The translations under genes were made by a program, and so were the position numbers. Of a DNA stretch of 36,732 bases, positions 20,830 to 29,439 are shown piece by piece. The stretch spans positions 1 through 36,732 of the forward strand of contig JAFSCW010000021.1 in assembly GCA_017436605.1 (NCBI GenBank), in the 5' to 3' direction. The notes beneath the pieces were generated by a model. The model did no database searches. It had not been told where the DNA came from and worked only from the letters and a program-made list of their open reading frames with translations. The stretch's first letter is position 1, and every line of letters starts with the position of its first letter. The stretch comes from Clostridia bacterium (GTDB lineage Bacteria > Bacillota > Clostridia > Christensenellales > Aristaeellaceae).

Positions 20830-21771
20830 TTATCTGTCCAGCGTAAACTTCTCGCGCGCGATATCGTCGATGATATAGGGCGTGCGCTGGTAGACGTAGT
20901 AGTTGAGCCAGTTGGTGTAGATGAGGTTGGCGTGGCTGCGCCAGGTGACGCGCGGAGGCTGCGTGTCGTCGTCGCCGGGGAAGTAGTTTTTCGGCACGTC
21001 GATGGGCAGACCTGCGTTCTTGTCGCGCTCGTATTCGAGCTTCAGCGTCTCCGCGTCGTATTCGCTGTGTCCGGTGATGAAGATCTGGCGTCCCTTGTCG
21101 GTTGCGATCGCGTAGATGCCCGCTTCCTCGGAGGAGGCGAGGATCTTCAGTTCCGCTACGCGCTCGATATCCGCGCGGTCGATCGTCGTATGGCGCGAAT
21201 GGGGAACGCAGAACGTGTCGTCGAATCCGCGCAGGAGCATGGAGCTGCGGCGCTCGACCCTGTGCTCGAAGACGCCGAAGAGCTTTTTGTCCAGCGGAAT
21301 CTTCCTGACGCCGAAATGATAATAAAGACCCGCCTGCGCGCCCCAGCAGATATGGAACGTGCTGGTGACGTGCGTCTTGGACCATTCCATGATCCGGCAG
21401 AGCTCCTCCCAGTAATCCACCTGCTCGAATTCCATCTGCTCGACAGGCGCGCCCGTGATGACCATGCCGTCAAAATGCTGATGCTTGACGTCGTCGAAGG
21501 TTTTGTAGAAGGAGAGCATGTGCTCGCGGGAGGTGTTCCGGCTTTCCCGGCTGGTCGTCATGATCAGCTCCAGCTCGATCTGCAGCGGGGAATTGCCCAG
21601 CAGGCGCGCCAGCTGCGTCTCGGTGACGATCTTGGTCGGCATCAGGTTGAGCAGCAGAATACGCAGCGGGCGGATATCCTGCGTGACGGCGCGGCGTTCG
21701 GTGATGGTGAAGATGTTCTCGCTTTCGAGCGTCGCGCGGGCGGGCAGGGATTCGGGGATCTTGATCGGCAT
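20830..21771 (-). CDS. metA: Homoserine O-acetyltransferase (MetA family)
   Basis: MetA acylates L-homoserine in methionine synthesis. The 313 residues carry the catalytic Cys142 in HICWGAQAG and the His/Glu of [12 protein letters not shown]. Residue 111 is Glu (GAPVEQMEF). In studied MetA enzymes Glu at 111 selects acetyl-CoA and Gly selects succinyl-CoA, so O-acetylhomoserine is the expected product, usually followed by direct sulfhydrylation. AAGGAGG precedes the ATG. It is the last gene of a run beginning with an ABC transporter, 28 bp after the ATPase gene, which suggests the transporter serves sulfur or methionine supply. Confidence 0.95.
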
Positions 21772-21799
21772 AGAAATCCTCCTTGTGCGTGATGGGGGA

Positions 21800-22366
21800 T
21801 CAGAGGCGAATGATGTTCATGCCGCGGGCGTCCTGCTCGTCGTGCGTGACGAGGATGAGCAGCTTGTCCTTGGCGGCTTCGTGCAGCAGCGTCAGCATGG
21901 CGGCGTGCGTGCCGTCGTCCAGCGCGCGGAAGGGCTCGTCCATCAGCAGAATGTCCGCGTCGAAGGCGAGCGCACGGGCAAGCGCGGCGCGCCGCTTCAT
22001 GCCGCCGGAAAGGGAAGCGGGGTAGGCGTCGCCCTCTTGGCCGAGCCCGACGCGCTCCAGCCATGTCTGCGCCGTCTGCGCGCTGCCGCAGACGAGGGCG
22101 ACATTCTCGCGCACGGTCTTCCACGGAAGAAGGCGATCCTCCTGAAAACACAGGACGATGCGCGCATCGCTGCTGATGCGCACAGCGCCGCTTTGGGGCG
22201 TTTCCAGCCCGGCGATCAGGCGCAGGAGCGTCGTCTTGCCCCGGCCGGATGGGCCGAGCAGGGCGTATTTTCCGGGGCCGGAGAAGGAGAGCGAAAGCCC
22301 GGAGAAGATGCGCTTTTCGCCGTAGGCCATCGAGACGCGCTCCAGTTCGATATGCGTTTCAGTCAT
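21800..22366 (-). CDS. ABC transporter ATP-binding protein (SsuB/TauB type), compact
   Basis: The 188 residues contain Walker [10 protein letters not shown] (38-46), the Q-loop Gln75, signature LSGGM (119-123), Walker B ILLMDE (139-144) and the H-loop His175. It ends 13 residues after the H-loop, whereas SsuB/TauB-type proteins are commonly near 240-260 residues. All catalytic motifs are present, so it is probably functional but lacks the usual C-terminal part. The start overlaps the permease stop by 8 bp, with GGAGGTG upstream. Confidence 0.9.
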
Positions 22367-23129
22367 GACGCACCTCCGTCAGATGGCGCGCAGCCCTTTT
22401 CAGCAGCGCTTCCAGCAGCACGCTCACGACGATGATCGTCAGCGTCCAGGCCAGCAGGCTGTCCGTTTCCAGATAGATTTTCGATTCGTAGATCCTGCTG
22501 CCGACGGCCAGCTTTGGCACGCCGATAACCTCCGCCGCGACGACGGCCTTCCAGCAAAGGCCGATTGCCGACAGGCAGCTCTGCAGGAAGGCGGGAAGCA
22601 CAGCGGGAACGTAGACGTTCAGCAGCGTCCTGCGGCGTCCGAAGCGATAGAGCATGGCCATTTCAAGCAGCTTCGGATCGATCGCGCGGACGGCCTGCGT
22701 CAGCGCGGAAAAGACGACCGGCAGCGTCATCAGAAAGCCGGTGAGAATGGGCACGCGCGGGCTGGAAAGCCACACGAGCGCCAGCACGATGAACGAAGTC
22801 ACGGGCGTCGCGCGGACGGCGGAAAGCAGCGGGGATAGCAGCAGATCGGCGATCTTCCAGCGCAGGCACAGCGCGCCCAGCAGCACGGCGAAGGCGATGC
22901 CGAGCGCATAGGAAAGCAGCGTGCGAAGAAGCGTCGCAAAAAGCGACTGATAAAACGCCGCCTGCGGCAGCAGGCTGAATAGCTTGGCGATTACCGCGCC
23001 CGGCCCGGGCAGGAGCAGCGGCTGATCGATGATCCGCGCGAGAACAGCCCAGAGCGCGACATAGAAAACCAAAACGCCCGCGCGCGAAAGCAGGCCTTCG
23101 GCGCGCGGGCTGAAACGTTTAGCGGGCAT
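22359..23129 (-). CDS. ABC transporter permease (SsuC/TauC type)
   Basis: This 256-residue inner-membrane permease has about six helices. The cytoplasmic coupling loop lies around MAMLYRFGRRRTLLNVYVPAV, and LLLPGPGAV near the N-terminus is typical for nitrate/sulfonate/taurine importers. It overlaps the binding-protein gene by 11 bp upstream and the ATPase gene downstream. No strong Shine-Dalgarno is visible, which fits coupled translation. The substrate is unknown. Confidence 0.92.
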   Translation of the reverse strand: MPAKRFSPRAEGLLSRAGVLVFYVALWAVLARIIDQPLLLPGPGAVIAKLFSLLPQAAFYQSLFATLLRTLLSYALGIAFAVLLGALCLRWKIADLLLSPLLSAVRATPVTSFIVLALVWLSSPRVPILTGFLMTLPVVFSALTQAVRAIDPKLLEMAMLYRFGRRRTLLNVYVPAVLPAFLQSCLSAIGLCWKAVVAAEVIGVPKLAVGSRIYESKIYLETDSLLAWTLTIIVVSVLLEALLKRAARHLTEVRHD

Positions 23130-24075
23130 AGTAGAAATCGTCGCCCGGCAGCGCGCCGCCGATGGAGGCGGGATTGGCGTTGTAGAGCACGGTATAGAGC
23201 GGGCTGATCTGCTTGCGCATCTCAGCGCCCTCGATGAAGACGATGTGGCAATTCGGGATCGCGCGCTGGGCGACGGCGGCCTTGGGCATTACGCCGTGCT
23301 TTTCGACCAGCTGGCTGGCGGCCTCGGGATCGCTGTTCACCATCTCCACGGACTTGCTGTAGGCGTCCATGAACGCTTCGACCTTCTCCGGGTTTTCCTC
23401 GGCGAAGGCGCGGCGGACGATCACGCAGCCCATGGAGAGCACCATATCGCTGCCGGCCTTTTCAGCGGCGGCTTCGAAGGCGGCGGTCACGTCGATCACG
23501 GCCTTGAGCGCGTCGTTCTGCATCAGGGCGCTGGTGACGTGCGGCTCGGGCAGGATGCCGATTTCAGCCTTGCCCGCGGCCATGAGGGTGGCCAGCTCGC
23601 TGTGCTCGGCGACGTATTCGATCTCGACCTTGTCGGTCAGGCCGTTCTGCTCGAGGATATAGCGGACCACATACTCCGGCACGCTCGCCTGTCCGGTCGC
23701 GTAGACCTTGCGGCCTGCGAGGTCGTCGAAGGAATCAATCGAATGATCGGAGGAGACGACGTGCAGAACGCCCAGCGTATTGAGCGCCAGCAGCTGGACG
23801 CTGCCCTTGGTCTTCTGGTAGAGGGTCGCGGCGAGGTTCGTCGGGCAGGCGGCGATGTCTGCGCTGCCGCTGGCGATCGCGGCGACGATCTCATCGGCGG
23901 CGCCAACGAGGGTGAACGCATAGGCGGGGTCTTCCATCACGCCGGAAAGACCGATGCCGGTCGGGCCCTTGAGCGCGAAGACGCGGACGGGCTCGTCGGC
24001 GGCACCGCAGGCGGCCGTTGCCAGCACAAGCGCAAGCGCCAGTGCAGCGGCAAGAAGCGTTTTCAAAGATTTCAT
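23119..24075 (-). CDS. ABC transporter substrate-binding lipoprotein (SsuA/NMT1-like)
   Basis: This 318-residue protein starts at 24075, with GGAGG 10 bp upstream. A signal peptide of about 23 residues ends in ATAACGAAD, a plausible though weak lipobox. The mature part resembles the NMT1/SsuA class, with ASGSADIAACPTNLAATLY, LLALNTLGVLHVVSSD and IEYVAEHSELATLMAAGKAEI. Members bind sulfonates, taurine, nitrate or thiamine precursors. Being in one unit with metA favours an organosulfur compound, but this is inference. No desulfonating monooxygenase is present in the window. Confidence 0.88.
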   Translation of the reverse strand: MKSLKTLLAAALALALVLATAACGAADEPVRVFALKGPTGIGLSGVMEDPAYAFTLVGAADEIVAAIASGSADIAACPTNLAATLYQKTKGSVQLLALNTLGVLHVVSSDHSIDSFDDLAGRKVYATGQASVPEYVVRYILEQNGLTDKVEIEYVAEHSELATLMAAGKAEIGILPEPHVTSALMQNDALKAVIDVTAAFEAAAEKAGSDMVLSMGCVIVRRAFAEENPEKVEAFMDAYSKSVEMVNSDPEAASQLVEKHGVMPKAAVAQRAIPNCHIVFIEGAEMRKQISPLYTVLYNANPASIGGALPGDDFYYAR

Positions 24076-24185: not shown

Positions 24186-24214
24186 AGTATACCATAATCG
24201 GCGCGGATTTACAA
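24186..24214 (-). promoter_or_regulatory. Promoter of the ABC-metA operon
   Basis: On the minus strand, TTGTAA (24214-24209), a 17-bp spacer and TATACT (24191-24186). The predicted leader is about 100 nt long. Confidence 0.7.
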
Positions 24215-24242
24215 CTTTGTTACAGGGACGTAGCGCGCATTA

Positions 24243-24251
24243 TGTTATAAT
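24243..24251 (+). promoter_or_regulatory. Extended -10 promoter of the two-component genes
   Basis: TGTTATAAT combines a TG extension with a perfect TATAAT (24246-24251), 22 bp before the ATG. No good -35 box is present. Confidence 0.6.
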
Positions 24252-24273: not shown

Positions 24274-24942
24274 ATGACCGATATCATGATTGTGGAAGAC
24301 GAAGCGGCGATCCGGCAGGTGATCGCGATGCATCTGCAGCTCGTTGGCCATGGCGTGCGCGAGGCGGAGGACGCGGCAAATGCCCGCAGCCTGATCGCCG
24401 AAAAGAAGCCGGATCTTGCGCTGCTGGACATCATGCTGCCCGGCGAGGATGGCTTTTCTCTGGGCGAATACCTGATCGGAAGGGACGTGCCTGTGCTGTT
24501 CCTGACGGCGAAGACCGCCGTAACGGATCGCGTACGCGGGCTGTCGATGGGCGCGCAGGATTATATCCTCAAGCCCTTTGAACCGGCGGAGCTGCTGGCC
24601 CGGGTGGAGAATATCCTCCGGCGCACGCGGAAGGAGGATACCACGCTGATCTGCGGCGGGCTCATGATCGATTTCGCTGCGCGGCGGGTGATGCGCTCGG
24701 GCGAAGAGATCCCGCTGACCACGCTGGAATTTGACCTGCTGGCGATGCTCGCGCGCAGGCGCAATGTCGCCATGAGCCGGGAGGAGCTGCTTGCCGGCGT
24801 ATGGGGCTATGACTATGCGGGCGAGACGCGTACCGTGGACGTCCATGTTCAGCGCCTTCGCGGGAAGATCGGCGCGCAGCATATCGAGACGGTGTATAAA
24901 TACGGATACAGGTTCAACGGTCATCCGGAGGGGAACACATGA
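24274..24942 (+). CDS. OmpR/PhoB-family response regulator
   Basis: This 222-residue DNA-binding regulator has an N-terminal receiver with the acidic pocket around VEDE (7-10), phospho-acceptor Asp52 (LLDIMLPGEDG), the switch Thr78 and Lys100 (DYILKPF). A winged-helix output domain ends in RTVDVHVQRLRGKIG and TVYKYGYRF. GGAGGG lies 8 bp before the ATG. It overlaps the kinase gene by ATGA, so they form one two-component system. Likely targets are its own promoter and the two secreted-protein genes that follow, by inference from order. Confidence 0.95.
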   Translation: MTDIMIVEDEAAIRQVIAMHLQLVGHGVREAEDAANARSLIAEKKPDLALLDIMLPGEDGFSLGEYLIGRDVPVLFLTAKTAVTDRVRGLSMGAQDYILKPFEPAELLARVENILRRTRKEDTTLICGGLMIDFAARRVMRSGEEIPLTTLEFDLLAMLARRRNVAMSREELLAGVWGYDYAGETRTVDVHVQRLRGKIGAQHIETVYKYGYRFNGHPEGNT

Positions 24943-26117
24943 GGACAAAGATTGCCGCCGCCATGACAGCGCTGGCGCTGCTGCTGTTTCCGCTGGGCGC
25001 GCTGTTGATCGTCCATCAGGGCTTTCAGCTCATGATGGAGCAGGAACGCGCGCGCGCCCTTTCCGAGGAAGCGGCCATTGCCCGCGCGGTGGCGCTGGAA
25101 TTATCGGATGATTCGCGCGAGGAACTGTTTCTGACGGCGTCCGGGCTGCAGCGGCGCTATGGCTCCTCTTCGCTGAGCGTTGCGCTTGCCTATCGGGGCG
25201 AGATGATGGCCGGCGCGGCGCGGCCGCAGGCGGCGGGCGCGCAGGAGCTGCTGGCCACGCAGAGCCGCGCGACGCTGCTGGATGGCGCCGCGCAGCAGCT
25301 CCATATCGCGCACAGGCTCTCGGAGGATCTGACACTGCTGGTGACCTCCGATGTCTCGGGGGTGTATACGTTCCGCCGGGATCTGGCGCTCTGGTCGGGC
25401 GGGCTGAGCCTTGTGGGCGTGCTGCTGAGCGGCCTGCTCTCCGTGGTCGTGTCCGGCTGGCTCGCTCGTCCGTTCAAGCTGCTGGCGCAGCAGAGGCAGG
25501 AGCTGATCGACGCGCTTGCCCATGAAATGCGCACGCCGCTGACGGCGATTCTTTGCGGCGTGCGCCTGCTGGAGCGGGCGAATCTGGACGAGGAGAGCCG
25601 CGCGTCGCTGCTTGCCTCCATGGGCAGGGAGACGCAGCGCCTGACGGACATGGACGAGCGCCTGCTGCTTCTCACGCGCCTTGAGCACGATGCGCCGGAA
25701 TGGACGGCGTTTTCCTCGAGGGAGATGGCCCGGGAGGCGCTTGCCGTGTTTGATGGCGTCGAGCTTTCCGGCGGGGATGCGCAGTTCCGCGCCGAGCGCG
25801 AGCTGACCATTCTGCTTCTGCGCAATCTGGTCGTCAATGCCCTGCGCGCAGGCGGCAGCGAGCCCGTGCGCGTGGTGCTTTTGCCGGATGGCTTCTCCGT
25901 CACGGACTGCGGATGCGGGATGACGAAGGAACAGGTCGCCCGTGCGTTTGAACCGTTTTATAAGGCGGATAAATCCCGCACGCGCGCGGCTGGCGGCGCG
26001 GGGCTTGGGCTTTCCCTGTGCAGGAAAATCGCGCAGCTGCACGGCGGCGGCCTTGCGATCCAATCCGAGCCCGGCCGGGGGACGTGCGTTGTTTACCACT
26101 TTGATACAACCCGGTGA
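24939..26117 (+). CDS. Sensor histidine kinase
   Basis: This 392-residue membrane kinase has a first membrane helix at about 5-27. An extracellular sensor region of about 120 residues follows (with a QRRYGSSSLSVALAYRGEMM stretch), then a second helix at about 152-174. The DHp domain has the phospho-accepting His195 in ALAHEMRTPLTAI. A compact ATPase domain follows with N-box LLRNLVVNALRAG, G1 DCGCGM and G2 GAGLGLSLC. The sensor region has no domain I can name, so the signal is unknown. Confidence 0.95.
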   Translation: MRTKIAAAMTALALLLFPLGALLIVHQGFQLMMEQERARALSEEAAIARAVALELSDDSREELFLTASGLQRRYGSSSLSVALAYRGEMMAGAARPQAAGAQELLATQSRATLLDGAAQQLHIAHRLSEDLTLLVTSDVSGVYTFRRDLALWSGGLSLVGVLLSGLLSVVVSGWLARPFKLLAQQRQELIDALAHEMRTPLTAILCGVRLLERANLDEESRASLLASMGRETQRLTDMDERLLLLTRLEHDAPEWTAFSSREMAREALAVFDGVELSGGDAQFRAERELTILLLRNLVVNALRAGGSEPVRVVLLPDGFSVTDCGCGMTKEQVARAFEPFYKADKSRTRAAGGAGLGLSLCRKIAQLHGGGLAIQSEPGRGTCVVYHFDTTR

Positions 26118-26137
26118 AGACTCTGAAATCGCCTGAT

Positions 26138-26146
26138 TGCTACAAT
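26138..26146 (+). promoter_or_regulatory. Possible extended -10 promoter for the paralog pair
   Basis: TGCTACAAT (26138-26146) lies 21 bp after the kinase stop. No -35 box is clear, so it may depend on an activator such as the neighbouring response regulator. Confidence 0.35.
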
Positions 26147-26185: not shown

Positions 26186-26246
26186 GCGAGGGCCGAAGGA
26201 GGAGCGGAGGGCGACCGGAAAGCCCTTCGCGTCAGACGGAGAATAC
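26186..26246 (+). repeat. Degenerate palindromic element related to the one at 29270
   Basis: An imperfect stem (GCGAGGGC 26186-26193 with GCCCTTCGC 26222-26230, one bulge) contains GGGCGACCGGA (26209-26219). CGGAGAATAC follows at 26237-26246. The same two blocks occur in the same order at 29319-29342. Confidence 0.45.
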
Positions 26247-26272: not shown

Positions 26273-27649
26273 ATGAAGACATGGAAAAAGGGTTTTGCGG
26301 CGCTTGCCTGCTGCCTGCTGCTTCCGGCGGCCGCGCTCGCTGTGACGGAGGGCGTCGTGGAAGCTGCGCCTTCGGTGGAGATGGAAAGCGTCGTCGGCGG
26401 GCAGGAGGCGATGGTCTCCTATCTGCCGGACGAGAGCTACTACGCGGGCTATGGCGATTGGTACCCCGCGTGGGAGAACGCGCAGGAATGGGTGGAGAGC
26501 AGGTTCGACGGCGAATGCTATCACGACGTCGAGCAGCGCCCACGCATGACGGCGGGCGAAGCCGCGCGCGCGATGAAGCTGCTGGAGGATTACAGGGCGG
26601 GCAGAATCGCTTACGAAGGCGAGAGCGTCCTCAACAAGATGGAGGATGTGATCGTCGGCGTGTATGCGCTGGATCCCGCAGATTATGCGGGCGAGGCGGC
26701 GTTTGTAATCCTGCCCGGTCCGTGCATGACGGACGAGCAGCTCCTCGCCGTTATCGCTGCGTATGATCAGCTGGGGCTTGTGTTCGATCCGTATGCACTC
26801 AGCGCAAAGAATTGCGCACGCGGCGGCGGTATCGAGACCAATCGCTTCCTCGTCGAGGAGGAACGCGCGCGCTATCAGACGTTGGCGCGGCTCATTGAGC
26901 ATGGCCTGCTGGATGCGGCCGCTGCGGACGAGACGCAGGCGATCCAGCCGAAGCTCGACAGCCGCTACTTCTGCGGCCTGCCCGATTTCACCATCCGCCC
27001 GTACCGCGCCGCGACGGACGAGGAATTCGTGGCGATGCTCGTCCAATTGGGTTATCATGACATGACCGGCGAGATCGACTACAACGCGGTAGAAAAGGAA
27101 AGCAGGGCGATTCTGCACGACAGGCTCGATACGGCGCTTTCGATGGAACTGAGCTACATCTATAATGAGGGCAGTTATGTGCCTGCGCTCTATGACAAAA
27201 ACGGAAAACAAGGGTATGACTGGAACGAGCCCGGACGCAGAAGCTACGGCGCAAGCTTTACCTACCATACGCCGGACGGCGTTCTCGTCTATGTGAATAC
27301 GGCGTTCGATGGGGAAACAAAGCAGCTCGTGAGCGCGAGCGCGATGCACAGCCGGGATGACAGCGACCAGCATATGACCGAAACAGCGCCCGCGCAGGAG
27401 CTGATCATGGCAGAGCTTGCCACGGTGGAAGAGCGGCTGGGCCTTTCCGGACTAAATTGGAATATTCTCTACGAGGACGAAACCTGGACGAACTGGGGCG
27501 AGTGCATTCCGGCGCGCGCGCAGGTCGCCGAAGGGGAATGGCTGACCGTCTTTATCGGCAAAGACGACGGCAGGGAGCATGGCATGGAGATCAGCAGCGG
27601 AACGCTGGTCGAGAGAATTGCCGGAGATGAGGGACCGGTCAATGGATAA
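26273..27649 (+). CDS. Secreted protein of unknown family, paralog A
   Basis: This 458-residue protein has a signal peptide (MKTWKKGFAALACCLLLPAA, likely cut near ALA-VTEG). I do not recognise the family. The mature protein opens with VTEGVVEAAP and carries VLNK (119-122), DPAD (134-137), LPGPC with Cys151, AYDQLGLVFDP and AKNCARGG with Cys181. The next gene encodes a paralog with the same blocks in the same order. A later segment (VNTAFDGETKQLVSAS) has the strand-turn pattern of PepSY-like domains, which is only a suggestion. It follows a two-component system and overlaps the next gene by 8 bp. It is probably extracellular or surface-associated. Confidence 0.75.
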   Translation: MKTWKKGFAALACCLLLPAAALAVTEGVVEAAPSVEMESVVGGQEAMVSYLPDESYYAGYGDWYPAWENAQEWVESRFDGECYHDVEQRPRMTAGEAARAMKLLEDYRAGRIAYEGESVLNKMEDVIVGVYALDPADYAGEAAFVILPGPCMTDEQLLAVIAAYDQLGLVFDPYALSAKNCARGGGIETNRFLVEEERARYQTLARLIEHGLLDAAAADETQAIQPKLDSRYFCGLPDFTIRPYRAATDEEFVAMLVQLGYHDMTGEIDYNAVEKESRAILHDRLDTALSMELSYIYNEGSYVPALYDKNGKQGYDWNEPGRRSYGASFTYHTPDGVLVYVNTAFDGETKQLVSASAMHSRDDSDQHMTETAPAQELIMAELATVEERLGLSGLNWNILYEDETWTNWGECIPARAQVAEGEWLTVFIGKDDGREHGMEISSGTLVERIAGDEGPVNG

Positions 27650-29216
27650 TCAGAAAATACGCAGATTCGCGTGTATGCTCGCGGCAGTTCTCTTTCTTCC
27701 TGTGCATGGCTTTGCTGTGACCGAGGGCGTGGTGGAGGCTGCGCCGGAAGTAAAGATTGAGATTGAACGGCTTTCTTCCGACCAATATTGGCCGGACGAG
27801 GAACTCTATGCAGGACCCGAATATATTCCTCCTTGGGCGGACGTTTCAGCATATACACAGCTCCGGATTGAAATGGATAGCTATGCACCGCTGATGCGGC
27901 GTCCGGAGTTGACGCAGGGAGAGATTCGGCGCGCTGAAAAGCTGATGGAGGCGTATCAGTCCGGTGAACGTATGGGAGACGGAGCTGCTGTCCTGAACAA
28001 ACAGGAACACGTGGTTGTTGGCGTTTATCCTATTGATCCGGCAGATCATGGCGGCGAATGCGTATATCTCGTTCTGCCGGGTACCTGTCTCAGGGATGAA
28101 GAAATCCTTTCGGTGATCGACGCATACGCTATGCTTGGACTTCAATTTGATCCACATGCGCTGCATGCACGAAACTGCATGCGTGGAGGCTGGATGGATA
28201 CAAGCAGAATGTACGCGGACGAGGAGCTTGAACGCATGAAAGCGCTGCGCGCTGGAATTCAGCGCGGTGAAGCAGGAGAAGCGGTTGATGGTAGTGTGAG
28301 TTTGTCGCTGTATCCTGCTTATTTCGGGGGGAAGAAATCATTTGAGATTCTCCCATATAGAAAGCTGTCGGATGGCGAACTGACTGCGCTTTTGCTGAAA
28401 CAGGGTGAACGGGATTTTTCGGGTGAAATTGATCTGGCTGCGTTGGAGATGCGGGCCAGAAGAGCGCTTTTCGCTTGGCTTGGCTGCGACCAGGAAGTGC
28501 CGCTGCTGCATACGCAGGCAGATTTTCCTTATCTGCCTGTATCACTGGATGAAAAGGGCTTGGCGAGCTATAACGGCCAAGAGCGCATGGGCGTGCAGTT
28601 TACCTTCGGCAAGGAAAATGCTGTACAGCAATGGAGCTATACCGCGAATGTGCTGTTCGATGCGGAAACGGAAGAAATACTGTCCATGCGCAAGGAGTAT
28701 GTGTGGAATGATGCGCTGACACAGGAAAATCGCTCTGATCCCGAACTGACGGATGACCGATCGGGACTGGTATTTTTGCAGGCAGGCGCAGATAGGATGA
28801 CAGGCTGCGAAGGCGTCAGCATGATGCTCGCGCCCGGAACGGATGATGCGCATATTGTTGGATATGGAATGACGGACAACGGATGGCGGATTGCGCTTAC
28901 AGTTGAGCGTTCCTCCGGGAATATGGTTGCGCATGAATATGTGCGTGCAGAGAATGCGGTCAGTTGGGATGAACTGGATAGCTGGCAGCAGGCCGCTGTT
29001 GATGCGCATGAGCAGGCTTATGGTGTTAAGGCACAGAATATCCATCTGTGGAAGATTCGGATGGAGCAGGAGCGTGTCGTTGTTGAATTCAGCTATCAGG
29101 TCTTCGGGGAAACAACAGAAACCAGGCAGGCGATGGCGGAGTTTGATCGCGAGACGGGTGAACTTCTGGCAACGAACTACACAGAAGGAACGAGAGAGAC
29201 AGTACTCGGACGATAA
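27642..29216 (+). CDS. Secreted protein of unknown family, paralog B
   Basis: The protein has 524 residues from ATG 27642, which lies inside the end of paralog A. GAGGG lies upstream, so translation is probably coupled. The signal peptide is about 25 residues (ending GFA-VTEG). Shared blocks with A are VTEGVVEAAP, AVLNK, VVGVYPIDPAD, LPGTC (Cys149), AYAMLGLQFDP and ARNCMRGG (Cys179). The cysteine spacing of 30 residues is identical in both. B is about 65 residues longer, with a C-terminal region (VVVEFSYQVFGETTETRQ, then FDRETGELLATNY) that again looks PepSY-like. Its DNA is more AT-rich, with more A/T-ending codons, than its neighbours. Function unknown. Confidence 0.75.
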   Translation: MDNQKIRRFACMLAAVLFLPVHGFAVTEGVVEAAPEVKIEIERLSSDQYWPDEELYAGPEYIPPWADVSAYTQLRIEMDSYAPLMRRPELTQGEIRRAEKLMEAYQSGERMGDGAAVLNKQEHVVVGVYPIDPADHGGECVYLVLPGTCLRDEEILSVIDAYAMLGLQFDPHALHARNCMRGGWMDTSRMYADEELERMKALRAGIQRGEAGEAVDGSVSLSLYPAYFGGKKSFEILPYRKLSDGELTALLLKQGERDFSGEIDLAALEMRARRALFAWLGCDQEVPLLHTQADFPYLPVSLDEKGLASYNGQERMGVQFTFGKENAVQQWSYTANVLFDAETEEILSMRKEYVWNDALTQENRSDPELTDDRSGLVFLQAGADRMTGCEGVSMMLAPGTDDAHIVGYGMTDNGWRIALTVERSSGNMVAHEYVRAENAVSWDELDSWQQAAVDAHEQAYGVKAQNIHLWKIRMEQERVVVEFSYQVFGETTETRQAMAEFDRETGELLATNYTEGTRETVLGR

Positions 29217-29269: not shown

Positions 29270-29342
29270 GGCTCCCTCCGGGAGGGGGCTGTCAGCGAAG
29301 CTGACAGAGGGAGCCGGCGGGCGACCGGACTGCGGAGAATAC
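29270..29342 (+). repeat. Palindromic interspersed repeat, nested hairpins
   Basis: The outer stem GGCTCCCTC (29270-29278) pairs with GAGGGAGCC (29307-29315). The inner stem TGTCAGC-GAA-GCTGACA spans 29290-29306. A conserved-looking tail GGGCGACCGGA (29319-29329) and CGGAGAATAC (29333-29342) follows. It resembles short palindromic elements I associate with gut Clostridia. It carries no coding capacity. Confidence 0.7.
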
Positions 29343-29382: not shown

Positions 29383-29427
29383 AAAAAACAAGCGCCGCTG
29401 CCGGACAGTTCATCCGGCAGCGGTGCT
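29383..29427 (-). terminator. Terminator of the beta-glucoside operon
   Basis: AGCGCCGCTGCCGGA (29391-29405) pairs with 29413-29427 (15 bp, one G-T mismatch pair) and is followed on the minus strand by T6. It lies directly after the GH1 gene. The plus strand has only a weak T-rich tail. Confidence 0.88.
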
Positions 29428-29439
29428 TATTATTATCGC

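Follow-up and report, generated by a model that had tools for sequence, protein, structure and literature searches.

We analyzed a 36.7-kb window (36,732 nucleotides), a single contig of the 2.65-Mb draft genome of a Clostridia bacterium, in which the genes for a response regulator, a sensor histidine kinase, and two secreted proteins of a family here termed S (S1 and S2) lie in this order on the forward strand, followed by a terminator-like hairpin. The regulator, the kinase, and usually one S form a conserved unit across related genomes, and the pairing is nearly obligate. On balance, we favor the interpretation that they constitute a three-component system, with S as a regulator-induced secreted accessory protein that acts on the sensor of its own kinase. 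The case is drawn from what the sequences themselves show: the order of the genes and their co-occurrence, conserved operators, correlated divergence, the domains that make up S, and the recurrence of its module elsewhere.

Linkage of S to a regulator-kinase pair

Two surveys were made, one of 100 related genomes and one of 308 genomes of a single bacterial family. In the first, S was present in 15-16 of the 100 genomes besides that of the window, with one strong match per genome each time. In the second, a profile of S (A1) matched 47 of the 308 genomes, 42 of which retained S after removal of signal-peptide-only matches and of one M56 protein. The kinase lies upstream on the same strand in 45 of the 47 S loci outside the window; the two exceptions are a locus at a contig edge (L094) and an orphan second copy of S (L091). 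A profile of the extracytoplasmic sensor of the kinase alone (A7) matched 44 genomes, and sensor and S occurred together in 41 (Fisher p = 3e-46, a statistic that ignores kinship). One genome contained S only, at a contig edge. Three contained the kinase only: in two of them the kinase gene is cut by the contig end, and in the third, which lacks S, it is interrupted by frame breaks. Genomes with multiple systems have several kinases together with several S loci, and gene maps show that the flanking genes differ entirely between loci while the regulator-kinase-S order persists. These findings support the proposal of an earlier note on this DNA that a secreted family is tied to a two-component system, and strongly contradict the possibility, which it had also raised, that homologs never occur beside one. 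The layout described there, in which two secreted paralogs follow the regulator and kinase, holds in part: the linkage stands, but the pair is not supported as the functional unit, since no other genome of the genus has S2 and all other same-genus loci carry a single S. One genome of this genus is a Clostridia metagenome-assembled genome from sheep rectum.

In the window, the response regulator (24274..24942, + strand, as for all features below unless stated) is of the OmpR/PhoB type, with Pfam matches to Response_reg (3e-25) and Trans_reg_C (3e-24). The histidine kinase (24939..26117) was assigned from its Pfam HisKA and HATPase_c matches, its hydrophobicity, and an alignment of 21 homologs. 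The pair thus has the receiver, winged-helix, HisKA, and HATPase_c domains of an OmpR/PhoB-type two-component system, all above the Pfam cut-off. S1 (458 aa; 26273..27649) is an open reading frame, for which the first survey yielded orthologs at 15 other loci. S2 (524 aa; 27642..29216) begins MDNQKIRR...; its plausible start at 27642 overlaps the stop of S1, and the mechanically called start at 27579 is disfavored. The terminator-like hairpin at 29390..29428 closes the operon, which is convergent with a GH1 gene.

The two overlapping secreted reading frames are real. S1 and S2 share 37% identity over 368 aa (BLASTP 227 bits, E = 8e-73), far above chance, and every shared motif that had been listed for them is present in the BLASTP alignment in the claimed order. 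Both have a signal-peptide-like N-terminus, no further membrane segment, and no LPxTG motif, features from which export is predicted only. S1, S2, and the S family profile had no match in Pfam, NCBIfam, or PDB sequence searches, in line with the description of the family as unrecognized; the one likeness to a known family is a moderate resemblance of the C-terminal part to a PepSY-type fold.

S2 retains every invariant residue of the family alignment. It is placed, with some uncertainty, on a long branch outside a well-supported S1 clade, and its GC content at third codon positions is 0.52 compared to 0.75-0.87 for its neighbors. On these two grounds, we reject recent tandem duplication of S1. 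S2 instead appears to be a further S, divergent in origin, that has joined the same transcript; that it was acquired horizontally is a guess. In genus g27, tandem S genes occur in L097, L105, and L112, and fusions with two or three S domains in L101, L103, L108, and L111.

Several side observations concern the survey loci. N-terminal-only matches (L115-L118) were signal peptides of unrelated proteins, and weak matches (L133-L136) were FtsK, surface-layer, and similar proteins; both sets were discarded. L091 and L094, close S relatives from genus g10, adjoin MazG-like and GH1 genes, with no kinase near L091. The kinase split by frame breaks (L139, genome G575) appears as if kinase and S had decayed together; a sequencing error is possible. 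An exported protein, X (~270-310 aa, no Pfam family), absent from the window, follows S in many other loci (L035, L084-L089, L092, L093, L095, L096, L098, L099, L102, L104, L106, L109, and L113), and the X member of L099 carries a fused peptidoglycan-binding domain.

Operators and correlated divergence at S loci

Conserved operator sites precede both the operon and S. Operator O1, TTTACAACTTTGTTACA (24208..24224), is a direct repeat in an 11-bp register before the regulator gene. Its consensus, TTTACA-N5-GTTACA, is matched with at most two mismatches in 33 of 34 homologous loci, 27 of them exactly; shuffled sequences mostly gave 4-6. Operator O2, TTTACCACTTTGATACAACCCGGTGAAGACTCTGAAATC (26092..26131), consists of phased half-sites that overlap the 3' end of the kinase gene and precede S1; it differs from the core at 2 positions (shuffle p = 0.01). 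Of 52 regions upstream of S, 45 contain an equivalent site, TTTACA-N5-GTTACA-...-TGAaGAC-...-G.aACa followed by a -10 box at a fixed distance. O2 is partly coding and in the window spans the kinase stop codon, but its conservation continues beyond the coding part, and groups differ in the reading frame that crosses the site. O1 and O2 are the only sites within 2 mismatches in the window on either strand. In the window's own genome O1 is the sole site with at most one mismatch, and a widened operator search there added none.

Candidate promoter elements accompany both operators. A likely -10 box of the operon, TATAAT, lies at 24246..24251, with similar boxes at the same place in homologous upstream regions. 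The likely -10 box of S1, TACAAT (26141..26146), begins 49 nt after the start of O2, as in the family consensus. We infer promoter activity at both sites from these sequence features. On the opposite strand, a divergent promoter-like site (TTGTAA-17-TATACT, 24186..24214) faces an NMT1-type ATP-binding cassette (ABC) transporter operon; its -35 box falls within O1, and a matching divergent -10 box was seen in same-genus loci that retain the transporter. The divergent transporter and a homoserine O-succinyltransferase gene occupy 20830-24075 and share the regulator control region in most same-genus loci. An 11-mer, GGGCGACCGGA, occurs both in the gap before S1 (26209-26219) and downstream of S2 (29319-29329), each time inside GC-rich elements that are possibly a repeat.

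Most genomes of genus g27 contain 30-45 operator sites each, compared to 4-12 for the reversed pattern; G506, with 5 sites, is the exception. Among the genes with exact sites in two of these genomes (G486 and G487; L175-L191), ten are large and, by raw count, all encode leucine-rich-repeat proteins, 7 of the 10 with the BspA-type repeat. Ten smaller operator-linked genes have no common family. The envelope or surface role suggested in the earlier note fits the position of the operator before BspA-type leucine-rich-repeat protein genes. Several paralogous membrane proteins of ~190 aa are also encoded by operator-linked genes in g27.

The window kinase has two hydrophobic segments, an extracytoplasmic sensor of ~120 aa, and no HAMP domain. 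Its sensor domain (aa 28-149; 25020..25385), the part covered by profile A7, is almost exclusive to S-linked kinases within the bacterial family searched. Because its Pfam matches begin only at residue 185, i.e., in the catalytic half, the sensor region is unclassified in Pfam, as had been noted from the sequence. The HAMP linker is lost in the window kinase and its closest relatives (L021-L026), visible as an alignment gap after the second membrane segment, and kept in more distant S-linked kinases (L027-L035).

We compared evolutionary distances of S with those of the sensor, kinase core, and regulator across 43 loci. Given the kinase core and regulator, the divergence of S remained correlated with that of the sensor (partial r = 0.60, permutation p = 0.001; 0.44-0.57 under other transforms and in a non-redundant subset). 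The partial correlation of S with the kinase core was 0.07-0.24 and with the regulator about 0.

The S module and its reuse on other signaling proteins

S begins with a conserved mature N-terminus, VTEGVVEAAP (26342..26371), for which the mean majority fraction is 0.81 compared to 0.44 for the next 52 residues. Two related units follow, unit 1 (aa 86-172; 26528..26788) and unit 2 (aa 187-268; 26831..27076), which align to each other by hhalign with a probability of 97.4 (E = 1.2e-11). We term them LTDEEL units after their pattern, 'R.LT..E..R...L...G ... F..LP.R.LTDEELL.LI'. They are joined by a segment, 'FDP..L..RNCxRGG', that contains the nearly invariant C181 (26813-26815). The earlier note had proposed a conserved disulfide; the cysteines concerned (C151 and C181 in S1, C149 and C179 in S2) are indeed present and 30 residues apart. 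C181, within 'NCxRGG', is however a lone nearly invariant cysteine with no conserved partner, and a C151-C181 disulfide is rejected as a family feature, as roughly three quarters of the alignment rows lack C151.

The C-terminal region (27059..27646) was modeled with AlphaFold2 as two alpha-beta4 repeats with a PepSY-like fold. For this model, built from three sequences (mean predicted local distance difference test, pLDDT, 65.8), the best structural matches were 4exr, YpmB, YpeB, and UipA (Z 6.3-7.1), and the best Foldseek match was YpmB (E = 1.8e-3). The C-terminal part thus has at best a PepSY-like fold, a modeled assignment in which our confidence is moderate. The PepSY family model (PF03413) matched none of 17 S members at E values up to 1, and sub-threshold matches were found only in one distant relative and one X protein. 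YycH and YycI were absent among the structural matches listed, which excludes nothing. The full-length model of S1, likewise from three sequences, had a mean pLDDT of 42 and was unusable except at the C-terminus; we gave no weight to the matches that Foldseek returned for it (E = 0.008 or worse), among them RseB/MucB and TolB.

Unit 2 and the PepSY-like part recur on other signaling proteins. They form the extracytoplasmic C-terminus of two Peptidase_M56 (BlaR1-type) receptors (L036:5455-8276 and L114:2990-5813), each beside a Penicillinase_R (BlaI-type) repressor. In these receptors the S module stands in place of a recognized sensor domain; the classical BlaR1 sensor is a penicillin-binding domain. 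Neither S1 nor S2 has a Peptidase_M56 domain in Pfam; only these distant relatives do. In a third case (L053:4018-5714), the S module terminates a one-pass protein encoded directly after an extracytoplasmic function (ECF)-like sigma factor; by position and topology only, this protein is a likely anti-sigma factor. The module is also found on stand-alone exported proteins, two of them in a distant genome outside profile building, and, in another bacterial family, on an exported protein whose gene follows a regulator and a kinase (L052). In hhalign, with E values that refer to single comparisons, S matched the M56 C-termini with a probability of 96.6 (E = 4.9e-10), the independent distant-genome pair with 94 (E = 1.5e-7), the sigma-linked protein with 90 (E = 1.5e-6), and, more weakly, the L052 protein with 65 (E = 6e-5); negative controls gave 2% and 0.1%.

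Proposed mechanism, rivals, and known systems

We propose that the unclassified extracytoplasmic domain of the kinase is what monitors the outside of the cell. The regulator would bind the direct repeats of O1 before its own operon, probably also controlling the divergent ABC transporter, and the second site, O2, from which it would drive S. With predicted regulator sites before both the operon and S, S would therefore be made when the system is active. Once exported, it would act on the extracytoplasmic domain of the kinase, most likely through its conserved N-terminus and/or the LTDEEL units, closing a feedback loop outside the membrane. S is probably controlled by its kinase system and probably feeds back on the kinase. 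We infer both the physical binding of S to the sensor and the existence of the feedback; that its sign is damping is a guess by analogy.

Several points weigh against this model. The PepSY likeness is moderate (Z about 7, pLDDT 66), L091 is an S copy without a kinase, and most of the aligned sequences are from draft genomes within a single family. Part of the correlated divergence may stem from a common history of two extracytoplasmic proteins that both evolve fast. Moreover, the same operator precedes surface-protein genes in a related genus, and S could equally be a regulator-controlled surface effector. The main rival accordingly casts S as a product of the system and not as its regulator: a protein secreted to the surface or cell wall, whose gene sits in the operon as a target of the response regulator. 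This would account for the regulator-type operator that S has of its own, for the operators before secreted leucine-rich-repeat protein genes in g27, and for the multiplication and fusion of S there, both commonplace among surface proteins. It is harder to reconcile with one dedicated S per kinase, with the joint absence of the two, and with a divergence of S that tracks the sensor domain specifically. Furthermore, M56/BlaR1-type receptors and a likely anti-sigma protein have the module as their extracytoplasmic portion, where an effector function would be hard to understand. Module reuse and sensor-specific co-divergence argue against this rival, to which we assign a distinctly smaller probability than to an accessory role.

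It is unlikely that S is instead a co-sensor that presents an external ligand (a metal, peptide, or wall fragment) to the kinase in the manner of a solute-binding protein. The PepSY-like fold, whose structural matches include UipA, a PepSY protein that binds metal, the peptidoglycan-binding domain carried by one X partner, and the nearly invariant lone cysteine with its CxRGG motif would all suit such a role, but no ligand-binding site was identified in S and no enzyme or solute-binding family matches it. Very improbable is a linkage that reflects only vertical inheritance of a neutral neighborhood within one bacterial family. While all strong S homologs do fall within one family, the flanks change completely as regulator, kinase, and S stay together, kinase and S are absent jointly, and the distant relative L052 lies likewise behind a regulator-kinase pair in another family. 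In a bolder version of the accessory-protein model, which we regard as a long shot, the LTDEEL-PepSY module would be an undescribed extracytoplasmic domain of three unrelated transmembrane signaling classes, i.e., two-component systems, BlaR1-type proteases, and ECF sigma/anti-sigma pairs; the two-component version would be a free secreted protein, induced by the regulator, dedicated to one kinase, and possibly a diffusible autoinducer for neighboring cells.

Exported accessory proteins of two-component systems are already a known kind, and some sequence features of S would suit the CpxP/DbfQ/SaeP functional class: a signal-peptide-like N-terminus, upstream operators, and linkage to a two-component system, with export and regulator binding predicted. 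The exported PepSY protein DbfQ of Vibrio cholerae is encoded beside a two-component system and binds the sensor of the kinase DbfS, and such PepSY neighborhoods are reported as widespread (PMC12714742). S resembles the DbfQ-DbfR-DbfS arrangement as a predicted exported protein, PepSY-like in its model, that is encoded with a two-component system and may bind the kinase sensor. However, DbfQ has 135 aa and one Pfam PepSY domain, whereas S has ~450 aa, no Pfam PepSY match, and two LTDEEL units, and is encoded downstream. In the SaeRS system of Staphylococcus aureus, SaePQ are expressed from an autoinduced promoter and their complex turns the kinase SaeS down; SaeR sites, GTTAA-N6-GTTAA direct repeats, share the 11-bp register of O1 (PMC5083920). 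The likeness extends to accessory genes preceded by regulator-type direct repeats; SaeP, by contrast, is a 146-aa lipoprotein with a membrane partner, SaeQ, and no sequence relation to S was shown.

The order of regulator, kinase, and secreted accessory protein also recalls WalRK-YycH-YycI of Firmicutes, where the genes for YycHI come after those for WalRK and their products join WalK in a complex (PMC5013275). The reverse complement of O1, TGTAACAAAGTTGTAAA, fits the 17-bp S. aureus WalR motif TGTHH-N6-WGTNDD (PMC10746227), and the sizes of S (~450 aa) and X (~280 aa) are like those of YycH (453 aa) and YycI (262 aa) (PMC5013275, PMC10746227). Unlike S, YycH and YycI are membrane-tethered, and the window kinase lacks a Pfam PAS match as well as HAMP. 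The Pfam YycH and YycI models matched no S or X member, and the YycI model, positive in a B. subtilis control, was silent across the window's whole genome. CpxP is strongly induced by CpxR and closes a negative loop on the sensor of its kinase (PMC4817254), a parallel to the feedback only proposed for S; CpxP is periplasmic and Gram-negative, and no sequence or fold relation to S was found. Among BlaR1/MecR1-type M56 receptors with BlaI, the two described above carry the S module as their extracytoplasmic C-terminus; the S of the window differs from a receptor-borne BlaR1 sensor in being a separate soluble protein. By sequence, S falls outside the CpxP, DbfQ, SaeP, and YycHI families; by analogy, it may work like them. 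The libraries and literature searched contained neither the S family nor the LTDEEL unit, its occurrence in three signaling classes, or a regulon defined by this operator, which is no proof of absence.

Most sensor kinases lack a known stimulus, and exported accessory proteins, studied mostly in Gram-negative bacteria and staphylococci, are one answer. Here, in a largely uncultivated gut lineage, the putative accessory protein, the kinase sensor, and the operators can all be read from the genome. The accessory module appears to have been exchanged between three signaling classes, which makes the LTDEEL/S module a candidate new domain family for annotation, and ~45 natural kinase-accessory pairs could be used to map the interface. 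The predicted operator would define a regulon that takes in BspA-type surface proteins in one genus and, in the window's genome, apparently the system's own locus only.

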